From positions 1 through 64,000 of the forward strand of contig JAMPHT010000005.1 of NCBI GenBank assembly GCA_023663285.1: DNA of 64,000 nucleotides, read 5' to 3'. The stretch is from Bacillota bacterium. GTDB taxonomy: Bacteria; Bacillota; Clostridia; Lachnospirales; Lachnospiraceae. A program made the translations under genes and the position numbers. Shown here one piece after another: positions 12,140 through 23,553 of the stretch. The notes under the pieces were generated by a model. That model was not told where the DNA came from. It searched no databases and saw only the letters and a program-made list of their open reading frames with translations. Every line of letters starts with the position of its first letter. Position 1 is the first letter of the stretch.

Positions 12140-12382
12140 ATGCTGGCATTACAGGGATATTATGATGGAAGTGAAGTTCGGATGTTAGAGCAGATTCGTG
12201 CACAAAAAAATCAAAAGCTGATTATCACCATACTTGATGAATTTATTGATGAATCAGCTTTAGAAGAGAATAAGAGTCAGTCTGCCAGAGGAATTTTAGC
12301 TAAATATGCAAATCCTGAATTGCAGGATGAAGAGGAATTTGCATGGAGGAAAGCAGTGGAGGAAAAATATGGTAATGCTTGA
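12140..12382 (+). CDS. antitoxin of a PIN-domain toxin-antitoxin pair
   Basis: An 80-residue small acidic protein. The N-terminal part (MLALQGYYDGSEVRMLEQIR) and central LIITILDEF are followed by a charged helical tail (DEEEFAWRKAVEEKY). It overlaps by 14 bases the start of a PIN-domain gene, the usual layout of type II antitoxin then toxin. Similar proteins pair with PIN toxins in Lachnospiraceae. I cannot place it firmly in a DNA-binding antitoxin fold from sequence alone. Codon use is AT-rich compared with flanking genes. Confidence 0.7.
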   Translation: MLALQGYYDGSEVRMLEQIRAQKNQKLIITILDEFIDESALEENKSQSARGILAKYANPELQDEEEFAWRKAVEEKYGNA

Positions 12383-12737
12383 TGCAAATATCATTTTGCG
12401 GTATTTGTTAAATGATAATGAGCAAATGGCTGATGAGGCCGAAAAAATTATTGAGGAAAAATCGGGATTTATTACAGTAGAGATTATAGCAGAGGTCGTT
12501 TATGTGTTAAGAAGAGTTTATTCTATTGAACGTGATGCCATAAAGTTAAGTCTCTTTCAGTTTTTGTCAGAAGTAACGTCAAATGAAACGGAAGTGATTA
12601 AACTTGGATTGACAGTATATGGCGAAAAAAATCTAGATTTTATTGATTGTATTTTATATGCCTATCACAAGGTAAGGGGATATGAAGTTATGACATTTGA
12701 CAAAAGACTTAAACGATTATTGCAAGATGAAATGTGA
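12369..12737 (+). CDS. PIN-domain ribonuclease toxin
   Basis: A 122-residue PIN-domain protein, expected to be a Mg-dependent ribonuclease. It begins MVMLDANIILRYLL (first acidic residue in LDANI), has a conserved Glu in ITVEIIAEVVYVL, and ends with LDFIDCILYAYH and VMTFDKRLKRL, giving the acidic triad or quartet of PIN domains. Start ATG 12369 has GGAGG at 12358-12362; the longer frame from 12306 runs through the antitoxin and is rejected. It is coupled to the upstream antitoxin. Confidence 0.85.
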   Translation: MVMLDANIILRYLLNDNEQMADEAEKIIEEKSGFITVEIIAEVVYVLRRVYSIERDAIKLSLFQFLSEVTSNETEVIKLGLTVYGEKNLDFIDCILYAYHKVRGYEVMTFDKRLKRLLQDEM

Positions 12738-17258: not shown

Positions 17259-17304
17259 AATTCAGGAGCATCATTTATAAAATGAAAAGTTTAGCGTATA
17301 ATAA

Positions 17305-17338
17305 GGGATGCAACAGTCTGTTAAGATTGTTGCATCCC
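17305..17338 (+). repeat. left inverted repeat / putative recombination site
   Basis: Arms GGGATGCAACA (17305-17315) and TGTTGCATCCC (17328-17338) are perfect inverted copies around GTCTGTTAAGAT. The reverse complement matches 18353-18386 in 30 of 34 positions. Confidence 0.8.
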
Positions 17339-17356
17339 GTTTACGTTACATTCTAT

Positions 17357-17383
17357 ATTTCGGACGCATTTCAAAATACTTTA
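17357..17383 (-). promoter_or_regulatory. sigma-28 type promoter inside the invertible segment, pointing out leftwards
   Basis: On the minus strand TAAA (17383-17380), 15 bases, then TCCGAAAT (17364-17357). This matches the sigma-D/sigma-28 consensus TAAA-N15-GCCGATAT at 4 of 4 and 6 of 8 positions. In the present orientation it reads leftward through the left repeat toward the 3' end of the ATPase gene. After inversion its -10 would fall near 18327-18334, reading into csrA and flagellin with a leader of about 125 bases. Confidence 0.5.
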
Positions 17384-17642
17384 GTCCTTTTTGCAAAAAA
17401 TATCCATTTTCACAAATTATTTTCAGAGCCTGCAATTTTGATTTGATTCCTTCAATGTTGAATGGTGGTGAGGGATTGCGCGCGGTGTGAGCAGGGAGCC
17501 TCGGAAAAGGCATAAAAAGAGTGCTGTCGCAGGACACCTTTCGTTTTTGGAAAGGTGCGGCAGCAATACTATCGGATCGCTGTGAAGTAACCGAAGGATT
17601 ACGTTTCATCCCGATTTGTCAGCCCGTCTGCGCACTTATCAT

Positions 17643-18236
17643 TCATAGTGCGATCCGGGCGTAGACCTGATCCTTTTCATCCTGGGCGATCCCCAGATAT
17701 CTGGTAGTGACGGCCCAGGAGGAATGGTTGAAGATGCTCATCAGCAGGGCGGGCTGGGTGCCCTGCTTCCAGGCATGGTAGCCAAAGGTCTTGCGAAGGG
17801 AGTGGCAGCTGATATGCTCCAGTCCCTGCTCCTTTGCGGCGCGGCGGATGATGCGGTAGGCCTGGAACCGGGAGAGGGGCGCGCCCGCCTTTCTGGGACT
17901 GGGGAAGAGATAGGGGCTGTCCTTTTTCCTGTGGCATCGTCTGTAATATTCCTCCAGAATCCGGCGCAGCTCTGCATTTAACAGGATTCTGTTTTCCTTT
18001 CCTGTCTTTTGTTCCCTCACGACGATATGGCTCTTTACCTTTTTCCCGTTGAATACATCTGTCCAGGTCAGGTGCAGGATGTCGCTGATGCGGAGGGCGG
18101 TGTTTAAGCCCAGCATGGTGAGGGTGTAATTGCGTAAGTCCGTGTCCGCAGGATGCCTTCCGTTATTCTGTGTCAGATAAAATCTCTTGAAATCCTGAAG
18201 CTTTTTCTTGTTCCGAATCGGTTGTGTTGCGCTCAT
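17643..18236 (-). CDS. tyrosine recombinase (putative DNA invertase)
   Basis: A 197-residue tyrosine recombinase consisting almost only of the catalytic domain plus a very short N-terminal stretch, like FimB/FimE-sized inversion recombinases and shorter than most phage integrases. Catalytic features: Arg I in NTALRISDILHL, HSLRKTFGYHAW (His-x-x-Arg), and the nucleophile Tyr in TTRYLGI after NHSSW. AAGGAGG precedes its ATG. It is encoded within the inverted repeats, reads away from csrA, and is the obvious candidate to act on them. A general XerC-like role is unlikely given its size and site context. Confidence 0.85.
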   Translation of the reverse strand: MSATQPIRNKKKLQDFKRFYLTQNNGRHPADTDLRNYTLTMLGLNTALRISDILHLTWTDVFNGKKVKSHIVVREQKTGKENRILLNAELRRILEEYYRRCHRKKDSPYLFPSPRKAGAPLSRFQAYRIIRRAAKEQGLEHISCHSLRKTFGYHAWKQGTQPALLMSIFNHSSWAVTTRYLGIAQDEKDQVYARIAL

Positions 18237-18352
18237 TTGTTTTCCTCCTTGAAGCTATAGTCTGGATTCGCCTTTCCCTTGGCAGATAATACTTTTTGCC
18301 GCAAATACGAGGTATAAGCGCACACTCGTCCCGGCATATGCAGGGAAAGATC

Positions 18353-18386
18353 GGGATGCAACAATCTTAACAGAGTGTTGCATTGG
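18353..18386 (+). repeat. right inverted repeat / putative recombination site
   Basis: GGGATGCAACA (18353-18363), centre ATCTTAACAGAG, then TGTTGCATTGG (18376-18386). The inner arm is perfect. The outer arm differs from the left copy at its last three bases, which would mark inner and outer sides after recombination. Confidence 0.8.
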
Positions 18387-18465
18387 CCGGTGAAAAGACT
18401 GGCAGTAAAAACACAGGGGCAGGCGCGGCAGTGATAAGCGCCCCGGATAGCAGGGAGGTTGAAGA

Positions 18466-18729
18466 ATGTTAAGGATGTCAGTGGCACAGGAAGAGTATCT
18501 GATGATAGGGGATGATATCAAGATCGTATTCTTAGGAGGGACCGGAAGGCACATGAGGATCATGATAGACGCCCCCAGGGAGATCAACATTGTCAGGAGC
18601 AGCGTGATAGAGAAGCAGTTCACGGATCCGGAGATACGGGCAAAGCTTCCTAAATATTACGCGGAGCCGGAGCACCCGGAGAAATACAGGAAGAAGCCGG
18701 GTGTGGTCATCACCAAGGGCAATGCCTGA
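18466..18729 (+). CDS. csrA: CsrA-family RNA-binding translational regulator, divergent
   Basis: An 87-residue CsrA homologue that aligns without gaps to E. coli CsrA through residue 47: EEYLMIGDDIKIVFLG, MRIMIDAPREINIVR. CsrA dimers bind GGA motifs in mRNA leaders and block translation; in Bacillus, CsrA with FliW controls flagellin. Arg44 of the RNA-binding surface is kept, but the Arg6 position is Val and Leu4 is Met, so binding may be altered. A C-terminal extension of about 30 residues (LPKYYAEPEHPEKYRKK) exceeds E. coli CsrA and may serve FliW contact. GGGAGG lies 10 bases before ATG. It sits 79 bases from the invertible segment and 161 bases before flagellin. I see no good fixed promoter between the right repeat and its start. 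Confidence 0.85.
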   Translation: MLRMSVAQEEYLMIGDDIKIVFLGGTGRHMRIMIDAPREINIVRSSVIEKQFTDPEIRAKLPKYYAEPEHPEKYRKKPGVVITKGNA

Positions 18730-18844
18730 TCATCATATTATCGGTAATGACCGGATGCTTAAGCGCGGGGCCAGGGCCCGGCTTTGCGGGAAGCGTCCGG
18801 CTTACAATAAAAACTCATCAACCGCCGCCAAAGAGCGGCATGAC

Positions 18845-18885
18845 ACCGGTGCAAACGGATTTGCACCCGGTAACATCAAGGAGGT
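18845..18885 (+). promoter_or_regulatory. flagellin leader hairpin with GGA loop and ribosome site: predicted CsrA target
   Basis: ACCGGTGCAAA (18845-18855) pairs with TTTGCACCCGGT (18860-18871, one bulged C), presenting CGGA in the loop; with the closing A-U pair this reads ACGGAU, a CsrA ANGGAN core. Fourteen bases downstream the ribosome site AAGGAGG (18879-18885) gives a second ANGGA site. This is the two-site layout known for B. subtilis hag. Confidence 0.6.
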
Positions 18886-18890
18886 AAACT

Positions 18891-21092
18891 ATGGTAGTAC
18901 AACACAATTTGACAGCGATGAATTCCAACAGAATGCTGGGACTGACGACAAAGGCTCAGGCAAAGTCAACCGAGAAGCTTTCTTCCGGCTACAAGATCAA
19001 TCGTGCAGCAGACGATGCTGCAGGGCTTGCAATCTCTGAGAAGATGAGAAAGCAGATCAGGGGTCTTACTCAGGCATCCTCGAACGCACAGGACGGCATC
19101 AGCGCAGTGCAGACCGCAGAGGGCGCGTTGACCGAAGTACACGATATGCTCCAGAGAATGAACGAACTGGCAGTGAAGGCAAGCAACGGCACCATGTCCG
19201 AAAACGACCGTCAGTCCGTACAGGATGAGGTCAATCAGCTGCTCACCGAGATCGACCGTGTGTCCGAGACCACGAAGTTCAACGAGATGTATCTGTTGAA
19301 GGGCGACGAGGGAACCCACAGCGTTGACTTAAAGGCGCATGACGCAGGACTGAAGGGAACGCTTGAGACAGAAGGCAGCACAGGAAAGTTTACAGCGGCT
19401 GAGCTGAAGGATGACGAGACAGTTTCTATCGGCGGCAAGACCTACACCATCGGCGATGCCTCAGGCAACCTGACCGCTGCAAAGGCAGTGGAGAAGGCTC
19501 TGACTGACGCGATGAAGGACAGCGATGAGGGCGACACCATTACCATCGACGGCAAAGAGTACACAGCGGCTGTAGAAAATGCCGCGAACACGGAAAAGGC
19601 TGTTAAAGAGATACTTGCTCTTGGAATCAAGGGTACGAGTGCGGCAATCGATGATACCATCGAGATTGAGGACGCTGACGGCAACAAGACGACCTATACC
19701 TATCTGCAGACCCTGAAGTCGGAGGATGTGGTTGAGAAACTGACGGCGGCGACTACCGAGACCGGGTTGGCTGCAGGCGATACCATCACCATCGGGGATA
19801 AGAAGTATAAATATCTGACTTCGACTACGCGTAATACTATAGCTGATGCAAAAACAAATCTTACGGATAAGCAGAACAGTGTTACTGCACAGACCAGCAA
19901 AATCAAAGTAGATGGTGTGGAATACATATGTTTTGCCAAGGCAAGTGCGGCTAACAAGCCTGAAGAGGCTGTTTGGAAGAGCAGCGACGGAAAGGTTATC
20001 TGGGGAGACAAACTGGAGCTGAAAGAAGGCGATTCCTACACTATAGATGGTACTACGTGGATTCGCGTATCGGATAAAATTACTGCAGATGGCTTCTATG
20101 ATGCTGACGGCAACGAGCTGGAGGTCCCGAAGAATCTGGAAGAAGGAACTTATGTGGCAATCAAGAGAGGTACTGATTCCACAACGGTTCCGTCAAATGG
20201 TATCAATGTCGTAGGCGACAGTTCCATCCGTGGCTTCTATGATGAGTCCGGGAATCTGCTCACAACGGACGACGTTGACGGGCTCGTAGCAGCGGGAACA
20301 AAGGTGACATTTTCAAATGTTGCAGATGTTCATGATAAAGTAACCAATCCGACTGACACTGCCAATAAAATTGCTGTCACAGCAAATACCGCGTTGGAAG
20401 TAAAGAGCCTCAAGTGGGAAGATGAAGACGACAAGGAGCTGACCAAGGACATGGTCAAGGATCTGGCGGACGGCACTAAGGTAGACATCAGTTCCACCGG
20501 CAAGAGCTACACCGTAGGCACACCCGGCGACAAGATCAGCAAGGAGCAGGCTTACGAGCTGATGGCTGATGAGCTGAAGGCGGCGAACTCTGTCGGCACC
20601 AAGGACGAGATCACCGTGACCAACAACGGCGACGGCACCTTCGAGTTCAATCTGGGCACAGTGGAGACTGCAAATACCCTGCACTTTAACCTTCATGTGG
20701 GCGCTGACGCTGACATGACCAACAAGATCGGCGTGAAGATCGAGACGATAAGCACAGACTTCCTGGGTATCAAGAGCCTGGATGTGATAGGCAAGGGTAA
20801 CGACGGCGGTATCTCGGCGACATACGCGATAGACGCGATCGAGGACGCAATCAAGAAGGTTTCCGAGCAGCGTTCTACACTCGGTGCAGTTCAGAACAGA
20901 CTTGAGCACACCATCAACAACCTGGATAACGTCGTGGAGAACACCACATCTGCAGAATCTCAGATCCGCGACACGGATATGGCTACGGAGATGGTCAAGT
21001 ATTCCAACAACAACATTCTGGCACAGGCAGGCCAGTCCATGCTGGCACAGGCGAACCAGAGCAATCAGGGCGTACTTTCCCTTCTTGGCTGA
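18891..21092 (+). CDS. fliC: flagellin, large, with expanded variable domain
   Basis: A 733-residue filament subunit, much longer than the usual 270-500. D0/D1 ends are canonical: VVQHNLTAMNSNRMLG, LSSGYKINRAADDAAGLAIS, and C-terminal MLAQANQSNQGVLSLLG. The middle 450 residues hold repeated beta-type modules: GDTITIDGKEYTAA, DETVSIGGKTYTIGD, GDTITIGDKKYKYL, and the pair GFYDADGNELEVP / GFYDESGNLLTTD. These would form surface-exposed domains and point to growth by internal duplication. AAGGAGG precedes ATG by 5 bases. A strong terminator follows. The upstream leader and csrA suggest translational control; I see no convincing sigma-28 promoter of its own in 18730-18890. Confidence 0.95.
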   Translation: MVVQHNLTAMNSNRMLGLTTKAQAKSTEKLSSGYKINRAADDAAGLAISEKMRKQIRGLTQASSNAQDGISAVQTAEGALTEVHDMLQRMNELAVKASNGTMSENDRQSVQDEVNQLLTEIDRVSETTKFNEMYLLKGDEGTHSVDLKAHDAGLKGTLETEGSTGKFTAAELKDDETVSIGGKTYTIGDASGNLTAAKAVEKALTDAMKDSDEGDTITIDGKEYTAAVENAANTEKAVKEILALGIKGTSAAIDDTIEIEDADGNKTTYTYLQTLKSEDVVEKLTAATTETGLAAGDTITIGDKKYKYLTSTTRNTIADAKTNLTDKQNSVTAQTSKIKVDGVEYICFAKASAANKPEEAVWKSSDGKVIWGDKLELKEGDSYTIDGTTWIRVSDKITADGFYDADGNELEVPKNLEEGTYVAIKRGTDSTTVPSNGINVVGDSSIRGFYDESGNLLTTDDVDGLVAAGTKVTFSNVADVHDKVTNPTDTANKIAVTANTALEVKSLKWEDEDDKELTKDMVKDLADGTKVDISSTGKSYTVGTPGDKISKEQAYELMADELKAANSVGTKDEITVTNNGDGTFEFNLGTVETANTLHFNLHVGADADMTNKIGVKIETISTDFLGIKSLDVIGKGNDGGISATYAIDAIEDAIKKVSEQRSTLGAVQNRLEHTINNLDNVVENTTSAESQIRDTDMATEMVKYSNNNILAQAGQSMLAQANQSNQGVLSLLG

Positions 21093-23126: not shown

Positions 23127-23226
23127 AGAAGAATGTTCAGGGCGTATCGTAAACGCCGGGGTACGGTGGCCTCGCCATTTTCGAGCTGCCTTTGCGAGTG
23201 GTGCTTTCGAGTGACCAGCCGGGGAG

Positions 23227-23467
23227 CAGAGTACAGGGCATTTTCGACTGTGCAAGACGTCGGTACTTAGCAGGCGTACTGTGCCTGCTTATGTACCGTT
23301 ACGTCGCGCCCTCAAGCGAAAGCGGGTCGAAAATACCCTGTACTCTGTGCCGCGGCGGAGGAAGCAGTACCACTGCGAGGCGATTGGCGGTGACATGGTA
23401 TGGAAAGCAGTGTCGAAAATACCCTGTACTCTGTGCCGCGGCGGGGGAAGCAGTACCACTGCGAGGC
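23227..23467. repeat. noncoding region with a 56-bp direct repeat, an inverted partial copy and a large hairpin
   Basis: The 446-base gap 23108-23553 holds no convincing gene. Two 56-bp copies (23326-23381 and 23412-23467) differ at one base and start GTCGAAAATACCCTGTACTC. A 22-bp inverted partial copy (23227-23248) matches their first 22 bases at 21 positions. Between the inverted copies, AGCAGGC...GCCTGCT (near 23269-23290) extends into a longer imperfect hairpin through GGTAC/GTACC. The first inverted pair could close a stem of about 120 bases. It may be a structured RNA, a regulatory leader of the two-component operon, or decayed repeat elements. Confidence 0.75.
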
Positions 23468-23553
23468 ACGGCGGCACCCCGGCATGGAAATCATTTTGAC
23501 ACGCTTTCGCCGGCCAGCGAAACGCAGCGGACGCATAAGGGGGAAACAGACCA

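Follow-up and report, generated by a model that had tools for sequence, protein, structure and literature searches.

A predicted invertible promoter precedes csrA and fliC

We analyzed a 64,000-nucleotide (nt) stretch of DNA (positions 1 to 64,000 of contig JAMPHT010000005.1, assembly GCA_023663285.1; hereafter the window) from a Bacillota bacterium of the family Lachnospiraceae, in which csrA and the flagellin gene fliC are preceded by inverted repeats that bracket a tyrosine recombinase gene and a predicted promoter. Our data make it highly probable that this locus is a self-contained flagellar phase switch, with inversion of the promoter turning csrA-fliC on and off. An original prediction, made from the letters of the window, had proposed an invertible segment, a sigma-28 promoter, a present OFF state and a csrA-flagellin target; all four recur in dozens of loci, and its coordinates and logic were correct apart from the length of the repeats. 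Comparison of these loci makes it probable that the species carrying them switch single flagellins on and off through DNA flipping, and gives strong support to the view that phase variation by invertible promoters would be widespread in Lachnospiraceae.

The two arms of the inverted repeat are 32 nt long and inversely complementary at 31 of 32 positions, so that the repeats proposed originally are present but shorter and better matched than the 34 base pairs (bp), 30 of them identical, first assigned to them. Their extension score of 29.5, against a best score of 15 across 300 Markov shuffles of the region, is well outside what chance would give, and we set aside a chance origin. One reading of the arm dyad, ATGCAACA..TGTTGCAT, is a pair of 11-bp half-sites with a 6-bp spacer between them (11-bp dyad arms were noted at the outset), and the motif family of these arms recurs in the arms of related elements. 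By score the left arm is also terminator-like (one found, shuffle mean 1.6). We set aside the possibility that the repeats are mere terminators, since the spacer and orientation data presented below call for recombination.

Inward of the left arm, 17 nt from its inner edge, lies a match to a sigma-28-type promoter that is directed away from csrA, as the original prediction had it. Its -10 element, TCCGAAAT, matches 6 of 8 positions of GCCGATAT, which we take to be the sigma-28 consensus. A profile search detected a FliA-type sigma factor gene above cut-off in the same genome, and the promoter is predicted to be of the sigma-28 type used by FliA-type RNA polymerase. In-silico reversal of the segment moves the promoter to 18308-18334, the position originally proposed, 131 nt upstream of the csrA ATG. 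Our promoter scan found no sigma-70-like site on the + strand at 18387-18466, bearing out the earlier statement that csrA has no good fixed promoter before it. The sole + strand sigma-70-like site of the scan (17274-17302, 10/12) lies outside the left repeat and is directed into the segment; the scan operated near chance, with 3 sites against a shuffle mean of 1.7 (standard deviation 1.3).

The small recombinase between the repeats, identified correctly from the start, scores above the Pfam cut-off for Phage_integrase and contains all of the candidate catalytic residues R49, K77, H145, R148, H171 and Y180, whose catalytic roles we presume. The profile match and the R-K-HxxR-H-Y set together place the protein among the tyrosine recombinases and not in the serine invertase class of Hin. 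Among aligned homologues, R49, K77, H145 and R148 are kept in 102 of 102, H171 in 101 and Y180 in 100. The NCBIfam 'tyrosine-type DNA invertase' models PRK09871 and PRK09870, presumably those of FimB and FimE, score far under their cut-offs (47.1/222 and 44.9/221 bits).

Table 1. Features of the predicted csrA-fliC switch in the window
Feature	Position	Strand	Description
Arm 1 of the inverted repeat (left recombination site, promoter side)	17308-17339		Dyad ATGCAACA..TGTTGCAT
Arm 2 of the inverted repeat (right recombination site, csrA side)	18352-18383		
Predicted invertible segment	17308-18383		1076 bp, both arms included
Predicted sigma-28-type promoter, TAAA-N15-TCCGAAAT	17357-17383	-	Outward-facing, directed away from csrA (OFF); sequence match
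Core-only tyrosine recombinase, 197 amino acids	17643-18236	-	Pfam Phage_integrase PF00589, 98.8 bits (cut-off 27.1)
CsrA paralogue, 87 amino acids, first gene of the controlled operon	18466-18729	+	PF02599, 62 bits (cut-off 27)
CsrA-type hairpin in the flagellin leader, GGTGCAAA-CGGA-TTTGCACC	18848-18867	+	Predicted
Shine-Dalgarno sequence of fliC, AAGGAGG	18878-18884	+	Sequence; possible second CsrA contact
Flagellin (fliC), 733 amino acids, second gene of the operon	18891-21092	+	Flagellin_N 146.2 bits, Flagellin_C 100.3 bits

The layout recurs in related genomes

We scanned GTDB species genomes for relatives of the recombinase and kept the best 80 of the 150 found; the records are mostly labelled Lachnospiraceae, Acetatifactor or Roseburia, in line with a Lachnospiraceae host for the window. 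Among these best 80, scored with profile models built from the same loci, csrA lies within 2.5 kilobases (kb) of the recombinase in 73, flagellin in 74 and either of the two in 76, the exceptions being L046, L075, L084 and L098 (loci are cited by our L numbers). A repeat pair with a sigma-28-like promoter is present in 70 of the 80.

To avoid circularity, promoter placement was analyzed in 81 elements chosen by repeats and recombinase alone, with the promoter ignored; removal of L020 and seven elements longer than 1.5 kb, and merging of near-identical ones, left 67. Every one of the 67 has an outward sigma-28 match (at least 10/12) at one end, at the recombinase 3' end in 65 and at the 5' end in two (L014 and L034). 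None has matches at both ends and none has neither; L083 has an additional inward match. In 1,340 Markov shuffles (20 for each element), the four promoter placements gave 1, 2, 3 and 0 matches, the two outward placements accounting for the 1 and the 2. The distance from the -10 element to the arm, measured in a larger element set, has quartiles of 16, 18 and 20 nt. We also ran a blind scan for a promoter-then-site pattern in 397 genomes of the family, which is strict and serves as a control, not a census. This pattern gave five matches in four genomes, all of them csrA-fliC modules in the OFF orientation, and the reversed-pattern control gave none. One match, L117, has no recombinase within the fetched 3 kb.

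The elements vary in architecture. In L015, L095 and L147, as well as L089 and L102, the recombinase gene lies outside the repeat pair and adjoins it, with segments of ~180-450 bp; L117 is likewise listed with this group. Six others (L034, L052, L067, L074, L087 and L140) are 1.8-2.6 kb long, with the recombinase separated from the promoter-side repeat by ~1.2-1.9 kb of DNA. A single genome can carry multiple modules, as in L034 and L078.

Related loci show both orientations and a footprint expected of recombination

Across 115 loci we identified 116 elements: 104 OFF, 7 ON, 3 toggles and 2 with no assignment. Clustering at 95% identity gave 99 clusters, of which 91 are OFF, four are ON (L065, L076, L096 and L145), two are flagellin-flagellin toggles (L002/L039 and L010) and two are unassigned (L057, where the wrong repeat pair was taken, and L142). 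A few of the 99 are redundant because, in L078 and L082, sites belonging to adjacent modules were wrongly paired in the repeat search. Five more modules outside the 99 (L161-L164 and L167) are all OFF, and L161 appears to be L052 again. The best 80 loci, picked regardless of orientation, hold 66 OFF elements, 3 ON, 1 toggle and 1 unassigned. Records without a metagenome-assembled label are also OFF (L060, L070, L078/L093, L090 and L140, the last an R. faecis genome). The OFF bias may come from a directional recombinase or from selection against flagellin.

Two comparisons of loci show the opposite orientations: in L076 compared with L093/L078, and in L096 compared with L085, the element is colinear (~75% identity) and csrA-fliC lies on opposite strands. 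The original prediction had proposed a search for the opposite orientation in related genomes, and the four ON clusters supply it, in other species and not in other strains. It was to be given up if a single orientation or a fixed promoter at 18387-18466 were found; relatives show both orientations, and no sigma-70-like site was found in that interval.

Strand exchange by tyrosine recombinases needs identical spacers. At the central five spacer positions, identity is 97-100% between the arms of one element and 27-54% across elements, as compared in 67 of the 81 elements (L014 and L020 were omitted beforehand, and 12 were not put in register). We also compared the first base after CAAC between the two arms, which was readable in 80 of 90 OFF elements. 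The csrA-side base is not A and the distal-side base is A in 22 of 24 informative OFF elements, those whose arms differ at this base (the exceptions are one A/T and one T/C), and the same holds in both informative ON elements, with L096 unreadable and L145 uninformative. The outer half-sites thus appear to stay with their flank, the footprint expected of a crossover in the spacer, with the number of ON elements being small.

Sequence of 700 nt or more is available past the distal arm in 82 of 90 OFF elements, and 51 of these have no dominant codirectional open reading frame there. The 31 that do fall into 24 clusters, 19 of them singletons. We found no conserved gene on the distal side of the 82 OFF elements, and the only constant neighbour is csrA-fliC.

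Some loci have other targets. Of the four modules in the genome of L034 (G463), L129, L141 and L146 are OFF and L145 is ON. The ON module (L145/L166 on G463:C13; L166:930-4244) has no flagellin after csrA, the genes there being, by eye, LicD-like and cytidylyltransferase-like; with such a target, the switch may also control surface glycans. Two divergent flagellin genes flank the element in L002/L039 and in L010, where inversion would exchange expression of one flagellin for that of its neighbour.

The putatively switched CsrA is a divergent paralogue and may act on the flagellin leader

Module-linked CsrA proteins keep R44, which we take to be the RNA-binding arginine, in 92 of 92 aligned sequences (some of them near-duplicate rows), have V6 in 73 of 92, and commonly carry a C-terminal tail. 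The canonical basic residues at positions 6-7 (SRK/TRK) are replaced, and the window CsrA does not reach the NCBIfam csrA equivalog cut-offs (39/73 and 30.1/70.1 bits). Judged by these residues and scores, the putatively phase-variable CsrA is a divergent paralogue, in a group distinct from canonical CsrA. In six loci that we read, relatives have a separate, FliW-linked CsrA that keeps SRK/TRK, and FliW is present in 34 of 46 genomes searched.

The window flagellin leader (18820-18893) folds with a GGA hairpin (z = -3.33). Hairpins with a GGA loop, scored as a stem of at least 6 within 170 nt of the start, occur in 73 of 81 distinct csrA-linked flagellin leaders compared with 148 of 1,900 shuffled leaders. 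A stricter tetraloop form, sought in a larger set, is found in 57 of 99 csrA-linked and 6 of 15 other leaders, at a median of 24 nt from the start codon. Stem pairs 4-6 show several base-pair types, the hairpin being kept through base-pair changes. In Bacillus subtilis, CsrA is known to control the translation of flagellin, and by analogy the operon under the predicted switch is likely to include CsrA feedback.

In strain B63 (L078 and the overlapping L093), flagellin genes without csrA or repeats adjoin switchable modules. In L093, three of four such flagellins have a facing sigma-28 match 222-232 nt upstream.

Limits of the comparative evidence and alternative explanations

Several observations weigh against a promoter switch at this locus. 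The window -10 element differs from the CCGATA of most other elements, and the blind pattern, because it requires CCGATA, does not match the window's own promoter. Ten of the best 80 relatives have no scored repeat-and-promoter element (L044, L046, L058, L075, L084, L089, L094, L098, L102 and L108); among them, L058 has an element in a separate survey of repeats and recombinase, and the repeats of L089 and L102 enclose no sigma-28 match scoring 9.5 or higher. The ON orientation is rare, at 4 of 99 clusters, and in only three of these is a flagellin the target. Each ON/OFF pair joins different species (~75% identity) and not strains, and the orientation evidence as a whole comes from assemblies of different species and not from reads of one strain. 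The half-site comparison has two informative ON cases and two OFF exceptions. Neither FliW nor a canonical or second CsrA was found in the window genome (3.07 Mb in 90 contigs), which may reflect incompleteness as the assembly is 86% complete; we set aside a FliW partner in this genome.

The rarity of ON elements could mean that the segment is frozen, having inverted in some lineages in the past and no longer flipping now, with csrA-fliC permanently silent here. The 91 OFF clusters out of 99 fit this explanation, as do a stop in the recombinase frame of L159 and a split recombinase match in L167, two loci whose switches may be frozen OFF because the recombinase is broken. In the window, however, the recombinase is intact with its catalytic set and the csrA and flagellin frames are open, and across elements the spacers match within an element yet diverge between elements, as continued exchange would maintain; we therefore consider a frozen segment very unlikely. 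The predominance of OFF might alternatively indicate that the outward direction is the promoter's real job, serving a far-side gene or an antisense RNA while another promoter serves csrA-fliC, and flagellin genes do stand on each side of the element in L002/L039 and L010. This explanation is highly improbable given that the far side has no conserved gene, for which reason we set aside a far-side target, that no sigma-70-like site lies directly before csrA in the window, and that a fixed promoter looks different, as in the three L093 flagellins described above.

There is very little chance, finally, that the repeats are the insertion ends of a small mobile element that landed near flagellin genes by coincidence. 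A recombinase between terminal repeats and several copies per genome (L034 and L078) would be expected of such an element, but across the ON and OFF elements the distance from the csrA-proximal repeat to the csrA or flagellin match is 15-188 nt, with the mis-paired L078 (782 nt) as the single exception. Elements with the recombinase outside the repeats (L015, L095 and L147) are still found at csrA, and the outward promoter is at one end in 67 of 67. A promoter switch for csrA-fliC remains our preferred explanation: repeats flank a segment with a predicted outward promoter near one end, and both orientations occur at orthologous loci, between species, as in the class of invertible promoters.

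Model for the switch and comparison with known systems

We propose that the segment-encoded recombinase would act on both dyad sites, cross over in the short spacers and invert the 1.08-kb segment. The predicted sigma-28 promoter faces outward, ~50 nt inward of the outer edge of one of the sites, and in the assembly orientation it points away from csrA-fliC, which would be the OFF state. In the flipped orientation, transcription would start somewhat more than 120 nt before csrA and yield a csrA-fliC mRNA. CsrA made from this mRNA would probably bind the GGA hairpin and the Shine-Dalgarno sequence of the fliC leader, which would put flagellin output under a translational brake as well. We infer inversion in this strain, promoter activity and CsrA-leader binding from the sequence features described above.

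In layout the nearest known system is hin-fljBA of Salmonella, whose parts are unrelated. The hin-fljBA segment is ~1 kb long and holds the recombinase gene together with a promoter at one of its ends. One of its orientations drives an operon of flagellin and the flagellin regulator FljA. This phase variation is treated in passages of PMC8306008 and PMC11868660, where FljA is called a transcriptional repressor in the text and a post-transcriptional one in the title of reference 125. The window locus resembles it in having a ~1-kb segment with a recombinase gene and an end promoter that would drive a flagellin and flagellin-regulator operon. It differs in using a tyrosine recombinase and not a serine invertase, other sites and a sigma-28-type promoter; the regulator here is a CsrA paralogue encoded first in the operon, and several modules per genome are possible. 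This would be a clear case of convergence, in which unrelated proteins have come to form a layout of recombinase, promoter, flagellin and flagellin regulator much like that of Salmonella. A more speculative proposal, which we regard as possible but doubtful, is that the module is a second, independently evolved hin-fljBA in function too: the CsrA paralogue would act in trans, through the GGA hairpins in the leaders of other flagellins, so that a module in the ON state would dampen other flagellins and antigen expression would become near exclusive in multi-flagellin Lachnospiraceae.

In the fim switch of E. coli, FimB and FimE are core-only tyrosine recombinases of ~200 amino acids, encoded outside fimS, that control ON/OFF expression of a surface filament. 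The window locus shares with it a core-only tyrosine recombinase of this size, an invertible promoter (the fimS promoter is mentioned in part of PMC5386303) and ON/OFF control of a surface filament. Here, in contrast, the recombinase lies inside the segment, the target is csrA-flagellin, and FimB/FimE-type cut-offs are missed. The original prediction had pointed to Clostridioides difficile, which holds in that this clostridial gut bacterium also turns flagella ON and OFF through site-specific inversion, but not for the mechanism: the Cdi4 switch inverted by RecV has no promoter inside and acts after transcription initiation, as stated in part of PMC5386303. Cdi4 is a promoterless segment in the flgB 5' untranslated region, whereas here a flipping promoter and an internal recombinase would serve one csrA-fliC operon; hin-fljBA is closer in layout. 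In the CsrA-hag-FliW system of B. subtilis, CsrA represses translation of flagellin mRNA (passages of PMC8306008). The conserved GGA hairpin near the Shine-Dalgarno sequence is a likeness to that system; the differences are that csrA here is a divergent paralogue under putative phase control and that FliW was not found in the window genome.

We found no description of an invertible flagellin promoter in Lachnospiraceae in the open-licence PubMed Central literature, and the PhaseFinder and PhaVa lists may hold some of these elements unremarked. These published lists cover thousands of invertible regions, according to part of PMC11868660. Neville et al. 2013 report, in parts of PMC3720852, that some Eubacterium and Roseburia flagellin genes have no detectable promoter and that flagellin amounts vary in R. 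inulinivorans cultures; the words recombinase, integrase and phase are absent from its main text. A promoter-flip module may explain both the flagellin genes with no detectable promoter and the variable flagellins in these parts of the paper. If single flagellin genes are under promoter flipping, each would be expressed in a bistable manner, with OFF the usual state in the assemblies compared. Lachnospiraceae flagellins are prominent gut antigens, some of them immunodominant in Crohn's disease. With bistable, mostly-OFF flagellins, the presence of a gene would not predict flagellin exposure.

Other features of the window

A place for the switch within a main flagellar cluster was considered and rejected, as the surrounding open reading frames are non-flagellar by eye, save for one flagellin-like gene ~16 kb away. 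This short gene (2147-2944, 265 amino acids) has no csrA, and no GGA hairpin is evident by eye in its leader. Elsewhere in the window, a small gene followed by a PIN-domain-like gene (12140-12737) resembles, by eye, a toxin-antitoxin pair, and 56-nt direct repeats (98%) are clustered with related inverted copies between two genes at 23155-23530.
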